Source of the DNA: Nocardioides panacisoli
GTDB taxonomy: Bacteria; Actinomycetota; Actinomycetes; Propionibacteriales; Nocardioidaceae
Length of the DNA: 64,000 nucleotides
Assembly (NCBI RefSeq): GCF_019448235.1
Contig: NZ_CP080409.1
Span: forward strand, 1,302,001-1,366,000
Direction of reading: 5' to 3'
Shown here: piece by piece, positions 27,516 through 31,715 of the stretch
How positions within the stretch are numbered: the first letter of the stretch is position 1
Layout of the letters: the number at the start of each line of letters is the position of its first letter
The notes under the pieces: model-generated
Database searches by the model: none
What the model was told of the DNA's origin: nothing
What the model saw: only the letters and a program-made list of their open reading frames with translations
Position numbers and translations under genes: made by a program

Positions 27516-27639
27516 TGGCGCTCCCTAGGTTTCGAACAGGTGGAACCCGCGCCACGTGGCGTCGGTAACATCCCCCACGACGTTCTCGATCCCGAGGCGA
27601 CCTGACAGAGCTGGCCCGAGCCGGCCGAGGAGGAGATGC

Positions 27640-29058
27640 ATGTTCAGCAACAGCGACGAGCTGCTCAAGTACGTCAAGGATGAGGGGGTCGAGTTCGTTG
27701 ACATCCGCTTCTGCGACCTGCCGGGCATCATGCAGCACTTCACCGTGCCCGTGTCCTCCTTCGACGCCGACGTGTTCGAGACCGGCCTCGCCTTCGACGG
27801 CTCCTCGATCCGTGGCTTCCAGGCCATCAACGAGTCCGACATGGCGCTCTTCCCGGACCCGACCACGGCGTACCTGGACCCGTTCCGTGACTCCAAGACC
27901 CTCGTGGTGAACTTCTTCATCCACGACCCGATCACCGGCGAGGCCTACTCCCGCGACCCGCGCAACATCGCGCGGAAGGCGCTGGCCTACCTCGACACGA
28001 CCGGCATCGCCGACACCGCTTTCTTCGCGCCGGAGGCGGAGTTCTACATCTTCGACAAGGTGCGTTACAACACCTCGCCGAACGAGTCGTACTACCACAT
28101 CGACTCCGTCGAGGGCTGGTGGAACACCGGCGCCGACGGCGACAACCTGGGCTACAAGACCCGCTTCAAGGGCGGTTACTTCCCGGTCGCGCCGTACGAC
28201 CACTACAGCGACCTGCGCGACGAGATGGTGAAGAACCTCGAGCAGTCCGGGCTGCTGGTCGAGCGCGCCCACCACGAGGTCGGCACCGCGGGCCAGGCGG
28301 AGATCAACTACAAGTTCGACACGCTGCTCAAGGCCGCCGACGACGTGATGAAGTTCAAGTACATCATCAAGAACACGGCCTGGCAGAACAACAAGTCGGT
28401 CACCTTCATGCCCAAGCCGATCTTCGAGGACAACGGCTCCGGCATGCACGTGCACTCCTCGCTGTGGAAGGGCGGCGAGCCGCTGTTCTACGACGAGTCC
28501 GGCTACGGCGGCCTGTCGGAGACGGCTCGCTGGTACATCGGCGGCATCCTCAAGCACGCTCCGTCGCTGCTGGCCTTCACCAACCCGTCGGTGAACTCCT
28601 ACCACCGCCTGGTGCCGGGCTTCGAGGCCCCGATCTCGCTGGTCTACTCCTCGCGGAACCGCTCCGCGTCGGTGCGGATCCCGATCACGGGTGCGAACCC
28701 GAAGGCCAAGCGCGTGGAGTGCCGCTTCCCGGACCCGTCGGCCAACCCGTACCTGGCCTTCTCGGCGCTAATGCTGGCCGGTGTGGACGGCATCAAGAAC
28801 AAGATCGAGCCGCCGGCCCCGATCGACAAGGACATCTACGAGCTCCCGCCGGACGAGATGTCGGAGATCGACCAGGTCCCGACCTCGCTGGACAAGGTGC
28901 TCGACGCACTCGAGGACGACCACGAGTTCCTCACCGAGGGCGACGTGTTCACCCCCGACCTGATCGACACCTGGATCTCCTACAAGCGTGACGAGGAGAT
29001 CGCGCCGGTGCAGCTGCGGCCGCACCCGCACGAGTTCGAGCTCTACTACGACATCTGA
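27640..29058 (+). CDS. glnA: Type I glutamine synthetase
   Basis: A 472-residue ATP-dependent glutamate-ammonia ligase, normally a dodecamer. Landmarks: [11 protein letters not shown], the metal-binding [47 protein letters not shown] and the C-terminal ELYYDI. Tyr400, in DKDIYELPP, matches the Tyr that GlnE adenylylates, and glnE is in this window. The ATG at 27640 has GAGGAGGA just upstream. Expression is probably GlnR-controlled. This is the main assimilatory enzyme (GlnA1). Confidence 0.96.
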
Positions 29059-29081
29059 TCAGCCCCGTTAGCTGACCAGCG

Positions 29082-29131
29082 ACGACGTTTCCGCAGGCAC
29101 TCTGACCTGCGGAAACGTCGTTCGTTGTTTT
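29082..29131 (+). terminator. Rho-independent terminator after glnA1
   Basis: A perfect 16-base stem (29082-29097 pairs with 29106-29121) with an 8-base loop, followed by TCGTTGTTTT. It lies 24 bases after the glnA1 stop and insulates the following low-GC gene pair. Confidence 0.88.
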
Positions 29132-29218
29132 CCATCAGTCTCCCCCTTACAGAGAGCACACACTGCCCAACTAGCCCCAACGCCCCCAAGCGCGTCGGCG
29201 AGCGACTAGGCTCATGAG

Positions 29219-29863
29219 ATGCTGTGGAAGCGTCAGGTTTCGACCTCGCCACCGGACATCGAGACTGTCCGCAAGCGCGCCCGTGTTCTGGTGATCGACG
29301 ATCATGCTTTTCCCGCGCAGAAGAGCTTCGAGCGAGACGGGTATCATTTCGAGCGGTGGCCGGACATCAAGAACCTGTCTCAACTCACCGATGGTCACTG
29401 GGACGTAATCCTGCTCGACATCCAAGGCGTGGGGCTCAAAGAGAGTCCGGACTTGCAGGGCCTGGGGATTCTTCAGCACGTCAAACACTCCAATCCGGCT
29501 CAGGCCGTCATCGTGTATTCCGCCCAGCGACAGTTGGTCTCCTCCAGTGAGTACCTGTTTCTGGCCGACGCCGTGTTCGACAAGGGACAAAGTTATGTCG
29601 ACTACAAGGCGAAGATCGACGACCTCCTCGTACGTCACGCTTCACCCGGCTACTTCATCGCGGCCATGAATCGGGAACTCGGGGAGAGTGCGGCCCTGGC
29701 GCCGCGGGCCGTGTCGAAGGCGCTCCGAGCTTTCAATACTGGGAAAACCGATGACCTACAACGATACCTAGGATCTCACTTACCAGATCGCGATCGAGTC
29801 GACACCGTTGTCCATCTAATCTCGGTCGGCATCAAGGTTGTCTCGACCATCGCAGCCGCATGA
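29219..29863 (+). CDS. Receiver-domain protein without DNA-binding output (stand-alone response regulator)
   Basis: A 214-residue protein. Residues about 21-135 form a CheY-like receiver: acidic pair Asp27-Asp28 (RVLVIDDH), phosphoacceptor Asp67 (WDVILLDIQG), Ser101 in the Thr/Ser switch position (VIVYSAQ) and Lys122 (VFDKG). All catalytic positions are intact. The remaining 80 residues are helical, match no output domain I know, and end in a hydrophobic segment (VVHLISVGIKVVSTIAAA). Base use is unlike the neighbours: 29761-29820 is 48 percent GC and codon 188 is TTA. The next gene's start overlaps its stop (ATGA). Partner of the ATPase; the output is unknown. Confidence 0.85.
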   Translation: MLWKRQVSTSPPDIETVRKRARVLVIDDHAFPAQKSFERDGYHFERWPDIKNLSQLTDGHWDVILLDIQGVGLKESPDLQGLGILQHVKHSNPAQAVIVYSAQRQLVSSSEYLFLADAVFDKGQSYVDYKAKIDDLLVRHASPGYFIAAMNRELGESAALAPRAVSKALRAFNTGKTDDLQRYLGSHLPDRDRVDTVVHLISVGIKVVSTIAAA

Positions 29864-31002
29864 CGGGAAACGTCTGGAACTTGTTTCCATTTCCAACAAT
29901 GACCCGTGAGCAGCTGACTGATGGAACGCTCATTAGTTCTCATCCCGACTGCTCGTCTTGCACTACGCGCGAGTGTCTTGACGACGGAACGACACCCATC
30001 GGCGAGGCATCGACTTGTCGGTACGGCTTGACATACGCCCGCATTGACGATTCGCGCCTCATCAATGGAGTGGTGGCGGTCGACCTTCCTTCGAACACGA
30101 AGCGATCCAAGAAGCGGGCACGAACCGAGCGGAGCAGACATGTCCGCAAGCATGACCTTGAAGAATCCGCACAACGCGCGCGACGCCTTGGGCCAGGTGT
30201 CATCGACGACTACGAGTTGATGCAGACTGCTCTTCTACACGACTTGGAGAGCAAGCCCGCGGTCTATGACGCGATCGCTCGAAAGCTCCGTGAAGATTTC
30301 GCCGACAACTTGAACCAGAGTCACGATTTCCTGCAGCTCGTGAAGTTGGTCCGCGGGCACGCCGAACAACTTCTTCACGCTCAACACCCAAAACTGGCGC
30401 CAGAAGAAGCAGCGAACAAACTCCCAACGGAGGGGGCGATCTTCTACTCAACCGAGTTGATGCTGGTAAAAATGGACTCGATGCTGTTTCTCAACGAGGC
30501 CAACAGGGCGGCCGGTGGAGAAAGGCGATTCCAGATTCACCCGTTCGCGCTCAAGTACCTCCGCATATACAGGTGGCAAGCCGAGCAAAAACATTTGCAG
30601 ATTGATTTGCTTGGAACGTGTTATGCATATTCGTACTACAACAACGATGCCATTGGAGCGGTAATCCAAGGTCTACTCGATAACTTGGTCAAGTATGCTC
30701 CGGCGAATTCGCAAGCGGCCGTGATCCTCGAGGAGACGGAGGAACACGTCGCCCTCACGTTTGAGTCACTCGGACCCAAGATCGAGCCATCTGAGCGGAT
30801 CAAGATCTTTCTTCCTCAATACAGAGCGGAAGCCGCCCGTCGGGTCGAACTCAGTGGGCTCGGGGTCGGCCTAGCGACTGCGAGGCAGATCTCAGACGTA
30901 CTCAACCTCGACCTAAGAGTTGATCAAGCTGAGACGGAAGACGACACTTTCCCCGCCCGCTATCTCACCCGATTCACTCTTCGCCTAAATCGCATCGGTT
31001 AG
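29860..31002 (+). CDS. Cys-rich histidine-kinase-like ATPase (HATPase_c protein), partner of the receiver protein
   Basis: A 380-residue soluble protein. The N-terminus has four Cys spaced C-x2-C-x4-C-x13-C (31, 34, 39, 53), ending in CRYGLTY, which could bind Zn or an Fe-S cluster. A basic linker (about 80-108) follows. Two HD-containing helices could be a dimerisation/phosphotransfer region (His127 in LLHDLES, His155 in SHDFLQLV). The C-terminal GHKL ATPase shows an N-box (GLLDNLVKYAP) and G-box (SGLGVGLATARQIS). No membrane helix or signal peptide. Low GC (30601-30660 is 42 percent) marks it as acquired. Coupled to the receiver gene by ATGA. The stimulus is unknown. Confidence 0.82.
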   Translation: MTGNVWNLFPFPTMTREQLTDGTLISSHPDCSSCTTRECLDDGTTPIGEASTCRYGLTYARIDDSRLINGVVAVDLPSNTKRSKKRARTERSRHVRKHDLEESAQRARRLGPGVIDDYELMQTALLHDLESKPAVYDAIARKLREDFADNLNQSHDFLQLVKLVRGHAEQLLHAQHPKLAPEEAANKLPTEGAIFYSTELMLVKMDSMLFLNEANRAAGGERRFQIHPFALKYLRIYRWQAEQKHLQIDLLGTCYAYSYYNNDAIGAVIQGLLDNLVKYAPANSQAAVILEETEEHVALTFESLGPKIEPSERIKIFLPQYRAEAARRVELSGLGVGLATARQISDVLNLDLRVDQAETEDDTFPARYLTRFTLRLNRIG

Positions 31003-31146
31003 TCGTGCCCAGGGGACGGGTGGGTCCGCCCCCCGCTCCGCCGTGCGCGAGCGGACGCGCCCCTAGAGCACTTGTGCATGTCAGAGGCTCGTCTTGTTGT
31101 CCACGAGGCTCCATTGCGACATGCGATCGGTTGAGGCTCCGAGCAG

Positions 31147-31185
31147 ACGCCCCCGAGCAACCCACGGTCGCTCGGGGGCGTTTCT
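31147..31185 (+). terminator. Rho-independent terminator after the receiver/ATPase pair
   Basis: A perfect 12-base stem (31147-31158 pairs with 31170-31181) with an 11-base loop, followed by TTTCT. It lies about 145 bases after the ATPase stop. Nothing else recognisable is seen in 31003-31146; its base use is closer to the high-GC backbone in the first half and to the island in the second. Confidence 0.8.
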
Positions 31186-31214
31186 CGTGGGGGGGCAGTG
31201 GCTAGGGTCGGCGC

Positions 31215-31715
31215 ATGGGCCACCACTCGGACTGGACCGACCGTGCCGCGATGCACGCCGACGGCGTGTGTGACGTCGTCGTGGAGATCCCGCGCGGCAG
31301 CCAGAACAAGTACGAGGTCGGCGACGACGGGGAGATGTGGTTCGACCGCCGCCTCGGCGGGCCGGCCGGGTTCCCCGGCGACTACGGCTACGTCGTCGGC
31401 GTCGACGGCGAGGACGGCGACGAGCTCGACGCGCTCGTGCTGCTCGACGAGCCGACCTTCCCCGGCATCCACATCCGCTGCCGGGTCATCGGATCGTTCC
31501 TGCTCCGGGTGGGCGACATCGACGAGTCCAAGATCATCGCCGTTCCCCTGCACGACCACCATGCCGACCACCTCGGGGACCTGCACGACCTGCCGTCAGC
31601 ATTCCTGGAGGAGCTCGACGCCTTCTTCCGCGCCTACCGGATGTTGGAGGACAAGGTCGTCGACGTGCTGGACCACCAGGACCGCGACCGCGCCGTCGCG
31701 CTGCTGACGGACTAG
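31215..31715 (+). CDS. ppa: Inorganic pyrophosphatase family protein (family I)
   Basis: A 166-residue soluble protein with family-I pyrophosphatase blocks: VVVEIPRGSQNKYEVG, GDYGYVVGV and the active-site signature DGDELDALVLLDEPTFPG, with its Asp residues intact. The canonical D-x2-K near the C-terminus is not obvious, and the N-terminus (HHSDWTDRAAMHADGV) is atypical. It may therefore be a second, diverged pyrophosphatase rather than the housekeeping copy. Hydrolysis of pyrophosphate is inferred. Confidence 0.83.
   Translation: MGHHSDWTDRAAMHADGVCDVVVEIPRGSQNKYEVGDDGEMWFDRRLGGPAGFPGDYGYVVGVDGEDGDELDALVLLDEPTFPGIHIRCRVIGSFLLRVGDIDESKIIAVPLHDHHADHLGDLHDLPSAFLEELDAFFRAYRMLEDKVVDVLDHQDRDRAVALLTD

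Follow-up and report, generated by a model that had tools for sequence, protein, structure and literature searches.

Detocs is encoded by three genes (DtcA, DtcB and DtcC), and its effector is an ATP-cleaving enzyme of the PNP type. The name stands for a defensive two-component system (PMC11249213). A further point of comparison is PDC-M43, a two-gene candidate for which PADLOC holds a receiver model (PDC-M43A) and a HATPase model (PDC-M43B). PDCs are putative candidates that came out of a guilt-by-embedding approach, most of them without experiments, and M43 is not mentioned in the passages that describe them (PMC12988326). A search of the open-licence literature returned no published test of PDC-M43 and no paper naming it.

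The locus described here is a pair of genes, A and B, in a 3.57 Mb genome of the genus Nocardioides (Table 1). Positions refer to the window, that is, the whole 64-kb stretch of DNA that was analysed. A first-pass annotation of this DNA had given the two open reading frames, their coordinates and their ATGA overlap, all of which were found again. In contrast to Detocs, the locus has two genes and no effector enzyme domain was found in it: there is no third gene, neither A nor B has a PNP domain, and the next gene, which encodes an inorganic pyrophosphatase, lies beyond a hairpin. Detocs was therefore rejected, in agreement with the first-pass annotation. In comparison to classical HisKA kinases of the PhoR, SrrB and WalK type, B has the HATPase core and an H-box-like His, but no transmembrane, HAMP or PAS part was found in it and the Asp of its G1 box is replaced; in addition, the partner receiver A carries no recognised DNA-binding domain. 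We give about even chances to the reading that the pair is an acquired anti-phage module, a divergent relative of PDC-M43 in which the receiver, with its helical tail, would serve as the effector.

Table 1. Features of the A/B locus and its borders (positions in the window).
Feature	Position	Strand	Remarks
glnA1	27556..29058	+	Conserved neighbour; its 3' side is the variable site
glnA1 terminator hairpin	29081..29122	+	Upstream border of the cassette; contains the genome-wide repeat CTGACCTGCGGAAACG (29102-29117)
Gene A	29219..29863	+	Receiver protein, 214 aa; receiver at about residues 20-136, then helical C-terminal segment
Asp67 codon of A	29417..29419	+	Predicted phospho-acceptor; opens the family motif D-x-x-G-V-G
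C-terminal helical segment of A	29645..29854	+	Residues 143-212; last helix (191-212) hydrophobic, moderately amphipathic
TTA codon within A	29780..29782	+	
ATGA overlap	29860..29863	+	Couples A and B
Gene B	29860..31002	+	Soluble kinase-like protein, 380 aa
N-terminal domain of B	29860..30129	+	Residues 1-90, with C31, C34, C39 and C53; no family match found
Helical hairpin of B	30211..30495	+	Residues 118-212, DHp-like; contains H155
His155 codon of B	30322..30324	+	H-box-like QSHDF
HATPase domain of B	30517..30990	+	Residues 220-377
Ser303 codon of B	30766..30768	+	At the position of the G1-box Asp
Downstream terminator-like hairpin	31148..31185	+	11-bp arms, T-rich tail; read from sequence

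Acquisition of the pair

Comparative analyses indicate that the pair was acquired horizontally, since A occurs in 2 of 215 genomes of the genus (E up to 1e-8) and in 1 of 394 genomes of the class (E up to 1e-15), its own genome being included in both counts and the only one in the second. Of 30 loci, the own one among them, 24 retain the gene 5' of glnA1, and A/B lie beside glnA in the own locus and in none of the 29 loci from other relatives. What was found is thus no fixed chromosomal regulator of the genus, present in all relatives at native GC, and the earlier description of it as acquired and self-contained agrees with these counts.

The base composition, likewise taken as foreign in the first-pass annotation, departs strongly from that of the surroundings. 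The GC content of the pair is 0.562 (A, 0.58; B, 0.55), as compared with a mean of 0.714 and a minimum of 0.642 in other windows of the same size across the 64 kb (n = 587; z = -8.6); the values of 48 and 42 percent quoted earlier are right for the single lines that were counted, but the whole pair is at 56%. A/T-ending codons do mark the pair, with a GC3 of 0.70 in A and 0.64 in B versus 0.96 for both glnA and the pyrophosphatase gene. The TTA codon is also real, A having one and none of 44 well-scored native ORFs carrying any.

The pair had also been described as a cassette between two terminators. At the glnA1 terminator, two 16-nt arms form a perfect inverted repeat (29082-29097/29106-29121), and it is on this repeat, and not on the consensus terminator scan, that the evidence rests, because the scan found one terminator against a mean of 1.8 in shuffled sequences. 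The downstream hairpin was read from the sequence as a stem-loop at 31148-31180 followed by TTTCT, and is absent from the list of the scan, which takes loops up to 8 nt. A consensus scan found no sigma-70-type promoter, and Rfam gave no match in 28900-31400. Even with up to 3 mismatches allowed, the 19-mer that follows glnA1 occurs just once in the window, and no exact 18-mer from the first 170 bases 3' of glnA1 is repeated downstream in the window or in congeners; consequently, no element ends were found.

Homologous pairs and their genomic neighbourhoods

The protein database holds 151 relatives of B and 182 of A, own included, and residue counts below refer to the best 120 of each set, again with the own protein. 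Contigs bearing A and contigs bearing B coincide in size 32 times where 0.4 would be expected by a rough estimate (80 B and 68 A contigs taken from the listings), so that A and B travel together. A pattern-based scan of an 84,980-species collection returned seven loci, namely six with a full-length B relative, in each of which A precedes B, and one with a partial kinase match. The six named hosts are Nocardioides Soil805 (L022), a Corynebacterium-like bacterium (L023), Arthrobacter silviterrae (L024), Curtobacterium (L025), Phycicoccus flavus (L026) and Schumannella soli (L027), and in all of them both genes are GC-poor (0.45-0.57 versus 0.62-0.72 in the surroundings).

Some of these pairs have defence or mobility genes as neighbours. 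To one side of the Curtobacterium pair are McrB, McrC, a C5-methylase and a GIY-YIG gene; to the other, beyond one uncharacterized gene, is AbiU/AIPR (AbiU, 4e-132). The Arthrobacter pair lies 3-6 kb from the conjugation-type genes SCO6880 and TraG-D_C, and that of Phycicoccus adjoins a partial PDC-M36A match (6.6e-11) and has a tyrosine recombinase 7 kb off. Similarly, a related Shewanella pair has a cyclase/2TM-effector pair at a distance of about 4 kb and HigB close by, and one of E. coli lies about 5 kb from a gene annotated as NACHT. By eye, the pairs of the window, Soil805 and Schumannella are single insertions among housekeeping-type genes. When defence islands are sought around the homologues, as the first-pass annotation had proposed, one pair (Curtobacterium) is therefore in a McrBC/methylase/AbiU island, but two of the six named pairs (Soil805 and Schumannella) are among housekeeping-type genes. 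For the Corynebacterium-like contig, one neighbour was scanned and had no defence match. Directly after that pair is a gene of similarly low GC (L023:9179-10045; 288 aa) that contains RNCITH, which by eye we take to be an HEPN RNase motif; the protein has no match in Pfam, NCBIfam or PADLOC.

These neighbourhoods bear on a different reading, in which the pair would be an ordinary, non-defensive stress regulator that happens to have been transferred: the four-Cys domain of B would sense redox state or a metal, B would phosphorylate A, and A would contact a host protein target. The scarcity of A in the genus and the low GC in all six named hosts speak against it, as do the relatives that lie on mobile elements or, in one clear case, in a defence island, and the fact that the closest named model is a defence candidate. 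On the other hand, the complete receiver and the kinase-like core are in keeping with such a regulator, the four invariant cysteines described below would fit a metal or redox site, and so would the single placement among housekeeping-type genes in the window, Soil805 and Schumannella. Overall, we regard a stress regulator as rather unlikely, yet as an alternative to be taken seriously.

Carriage as prophage or phage cargo was considered and rejected. No relatives were found in viral contigs by two family-alignment scans and one scan with the Shewanella protein, all of them pattern-limited; among 50,697 annotated phage records there were no B relatives, and A had one weak partial receiver match in annotated phages (H66; 25% over 58%).

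The receiver protein A

As claimed in the first-pass annotation, all phosphotransfer residues are present in A: among the listed homologues (best 120 of 182), D27, D28, D67 and K122 do not vary (120 of 120), and position 101 is Ser in 117 and Thr in 3. The Pfam match of the receiver (7e-4) is under the Pfam cut-off. The motif D-x-x-G-V-G, which was defined in this analysis and not by PADLOC, is present in 117 of the same 120.

No DNA-binding or enzymatic output domain was found after the receiver (best E 0.1, to weak SnoaL-type matches; nothing in Pfam), and a sequence search for a solved structure resembling the tail gave a best E of 0.11. The view of A as a receiver with no recognisable output domain is correct in that no known output domain was matched, but the segment is not featureless. 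An AlphaFold2 model (34 sequences; pLDDT 86.9; pTM 0.82) places four helices after the receiver (143-160, 164-174, 178-187 and 191-212), the last of which is hydrophobic. Among the best 120 of the 182 A proteins, the most hydrophobic 19-mer is at the C-terminal end in 119, and the best 19-mer in the last 35 residues reaches a Kyte-Doolittle value of 1.6 in 80. Because this C-terminal 19-mer has a mean moment of 0.36, and two charged residues in 73 of the 120, the helix would be only borderline or moderately membrane-like, and a membrane role for it is a guess.

Shedu (SduA, DUF4263) resembles the family in one respect, namely that a PADLOC SduA model is matched in its N-terminal part by the receiver of Schumannella and by a protein of Clostridiaceae at L028. 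DUF4263 itself gave no Pfam match in A of the window and does not occur among the Pfam domains precomputed for the 120 listed homologues. The two SduA-model matches are at L028:9098-11119 (674 aa, which also has a HATPase part) and L027:9351-10004, and point to a possible receiver-Shedu link; judged from these matches, receivers of the A sort may also front a known defence nuclease.

The kinase-like protein B

The first-pass annotation described B as a soluble HATPase with a four-Cys N-terminus, and both parts of this description are borne out. The hydrophobicity maximum of B is 1.18, with no strongly hydrophobic stretch. C31, C34 and C39 are kept in all 107 listed homologues with letters at these positions and C53 in all 111, the rest being gaps. 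The N-terminal domain has no family match, and a search by sequence up to E 5 found no solved structure for it. However, a helical hairpin had been overlooked, and it holds H155 within QSHDF. H155 and D156 are present in 120 of 120 listed homologues (best 120 of 151), and the AlphaFold2 model has helices at 133-175 and 189-212 around the H155 region (30 sequences; pLDDT 84.9), although with a pTM of 0.58 the domain arrangement is uncertain. B thus has the conserved, putatively phospho-accepting His in a helical hairpin that characterizes HisKA kinases.

The ATP-binding boxes follow the HisKA pattern only in part. The N-box is kept, N275, K278 and Y279 are invariant in the best 120 of 151, and the G2 glycines are kept in all 119 with letters there, but the G1 Asp is replaced by Ser (115 of 120) or Gly (5 of 120). 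In a profile alignment with the solved kinase SrrB, the Ser303 position falls on the SrrB Asp. Among 23 HATPase matches in the own genome, of which one is out of frame, the G1 Asp was read by eye in 20 of the 22 readable sequences; the other two are B itself and a sequence with Asn. In GHKL ATPases this Asp makes contact with adenine, and B may make weak or no use of ATP. Its loss is the main doubt about B, which may use ATP in another way, bind another nucleotide or work as a binding switch.

A further reading builds on this position: B would be a nucleotide-sensing pseudokinase whose altered G1 pocket binds a non-ATP ligand and so holds or releases A, with phosphate coming from elsewhere or not being used. 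It would account for the Ser or Gly in the listed homologues and the Met in two gamma-proteobacterial relatives, while other HATPases of the own genome mostly keep the Asp. However, the invariance of H155, D156, N275, K278 and Y279, together with the G2 glycines, is as expected of a working Mg-nucleotide site and phospho-acceptor, and the receiver residues of A are kept too; a pseudokinase is therefore considered improbable.

Relationship to PDC-M43

In PADLOC, with matches up to E 1, A matches only PDC-M43A (best 1.4e-15) and B only PDC-M43B (best 7.9e-14). Both matches fall short of most of the model, A covering 67-197 of 203 positions and B 185-328 of 347. Plasmid relatives cover PDC-M43A more widely (E. 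coli, 16-194; Shewanella, 3-200; Kosakonia, 14-194), and the HATPases of E. coli and Shewanella match PDC-M43B over nearly its full length. Across 396 genomes of the phylum, the PDC-M43A model detected the own genome only (E up to 1e-10).

Four plasmid records were matched by A, from E. coli, Shewanella baltica, Kosakonia cowanii and Phaeobacter inhibens, and three of the four are typed as conjugative. The HATPase is the next gene after the receiver in E. coli, Shewanella and Phaeobacter, and no partner is annotated on the small Kosakonia plasmid. At the DNA level, the E. coli-plasmid pair was not matched by any of 5,426 E. coli genomes. Mobility of this kind could also suggest a maintenance or exclusion module resembling a toxin-antitoxin pair, with A toxic and B its controller, that serves plasmids and integrative elements and not the host; although it would suit the pairs that are carried by conjugative plasmids or lie close to genes for conjugation or recombinases, we consider it very improbable given the pairs alone in chromosomes (window, Soil805 and Schumannella) and the strongly conserved 214-aa receiver and 380-aa kinase-like protein, which are unlike a small toxin-antitoxin pair.

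The window pair has much in common with PDC-M43 of the E. coli and Shewanella plasmids. The receiver gene is directly 5' of the HATPase gene and the genes overlap, the receiver has the D-x-x-G-V-G motif, the HATPase partner has no Asp at G1, and the settings include mobile elements and defence genes. An alignment of 12 receivers from three lineages contains 13 invariant columns, including D-x-x-G-V-G at the phospho-site, and A of the window shares both the motif and these columns. There are also differences. The hydrophobic helix of A is C-terminal and there is no N-terminal one, whereas the three gamma-proteobacterial PDC-M43A proteins have a hydrophobic 19-mer near the N-terminus (Kyte-Doolittle 1.84-2.08). 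Additionally, B of the window adds the four-Cys N-terminal domain, and its G1 sequence is SLGP as compared with MHS in E. coli and MQS in Shewanella, both of which have Met at the G1 position.

The Phaeobacter inhibens plasmid pair (L030) is like the window pair in having a receiver with a C-terminal hydrophobic tail (Kyte-Doolittle 1.55) followed by a HATPase with Ser at G1 (SSKGP), and it scores on the same PADLOC models. It differs in that there is no four-Cys domain and the genes are 113 bp apart, with no overlap; identity to the window proteins is 23% (A) and 22% (B).

Since the pairing, the motif and the altered box are common to these pairs but the PADLOC models are covered in part, the comparisons suggest that the window pair is a divergent actinobacterial branch of PDC-M43 and not a clean member. 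Homologues already described as a named system would, by the first-pass annotation, have counted against its reading: a PADLOC candidate name does exist for the wider family, but the match to it is partial. The tie between an actinobacterial branch and the PDC-M43 candidate is new here, and the receiver motif and the altered ATP box are handles for finding further members.

Possible function

In the preferred reading, an acquired anti-phage module related to PDC-M43, B would be the sensor, its four-Cys N-terminal domain or a bound partner detecting a change linked to infection. The core around H155 and the HATPase domain would then phosphorylate A on D67, a step that a nucleotide in the altered pocket may control. 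Phosphorylated A would be the effector: its helical, hydrophobic C-terminal segment would rearrange or assemble, probably at the membrane, and activated A would halt or kill the infected cell (abortive infection).

Several lines of evidence argue for this anti-phage reading, namely the PDC-M43 matches in PADLOC, the motif and pairing in plasmid relatives, the mobile and defence context, the patchy distribution, the invariant phosphotransfer residues and the hydrophobic helix. Against it stand the partial PADLOC matches, the pairs that are alone among housekeeping-type genes (window, Soil805 and Schumannella), the borderline helix of A, the missing G1 Asp, the lack of relatives in pattern-limited scans of viral contigs and, for B, in 50,697 phage records, and the strong defence matches at just 3 of the 11 glnA1 sites scanned, with metabolic-type genes at many of the 20 sites. 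The first-pass annotation had suggested a stress- or phage-responsive switch. As far as sequence comparison goes, a phage-responsive switch is supported rather than proven: the PDC-M43 match, the Curtobacterium island and Septu-, Wadjet- and PbeA-type genes at the glnA1 site of three congeners favour it, but three pairs, including that of the window, sit singly.

A bolder and doubtful version would make the pair an immune two-component system in which the remodelled pocket of B, having lost the adenine-contacting Asp, senses a non-ATP nucleotide changed by infection, and in which the receiver is a membrane-acting effector whose hydrophobic helix has swapped ends between lineages. H155, D67, S303 and the C-terminal helix are named parts that make the mechanism testable. 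If the anti-phage reading were confirmed, the pair would, to our knowledge, join Detocs as a second case of bacterial immunity that works by two-component phosphotransfer, here with a receiver that is also the effector.

The 3' side of glnA1

The region just 3' of glnA1 varies between genomes and in some of them carries defence genes. In 20 congeners, A and the five genes 3' of the window pair were absent within 8 kb 3' of glnA1, two of the contigs ending after 1.6-1.7 kb; B had one weak 25% match in the same 20 flanks (L112). PADLOC was run on 20 ORFs from 11 of the 20 sites, the first ten ORFs having been picked as foreign-looking, partly by eye. Three sites gave strong matches: L101 has PtuA of Septu (6e-115) and a type IV restriction match (4e-16); L102 has PbeA (2e-252), Orf5 (5e-205) and a weak MzaA match (5e-4); and L109 has JetC of Wadjet (3e-171) and an NsnA-like protein (1.5e-32). 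Among the eight remaining sites, seven had no match, and the match of L104 to Csa3/CasR regulator models (best 3e-16) was taken for a generic winged-helix one. Many of the 20 sites carry metabolic-type genes. No enrichment is claimed, as the ORFs were partly chosen by eye and there were no random-site controls; nevertheless, in Nocardioides the site is a place to seek defence genes. In 3 of the 20 congeners, glnA1 has a tyrosine recombinase no more than 1.3 kb away; L101 and L109, besides their defence genes, have one next to glnA1.

The pyrophosphatase gene downstream of the pair (31215-31715) is a second, divergent copy, the other being at G000:C1:3181827 (45%). Of 38 other relatives, G013 alone has an orthologue (73%), and other matches are at 39-47%. 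The G013 orthologue has no pair beside it, and a link between the pair and the pyrophosphatase was rejected.

Finally, the repeat within the glnA1 terminator (29102-29117) corresponds to the pattern CTGACC[TA]GCGNAAACG, which has 9 exact and 2 one-mismatch sites in the own genome and 0 in a reversed control. It may be either terminator-related or attachment-like. At 3 of 7 distinct places the 3' end of a tRNA is no more than 20 bases away (L116, L123 and, on the opposite strand, L118); among 20 congeners, 6 have the exact pattern after glnA1 and others have variants of it.
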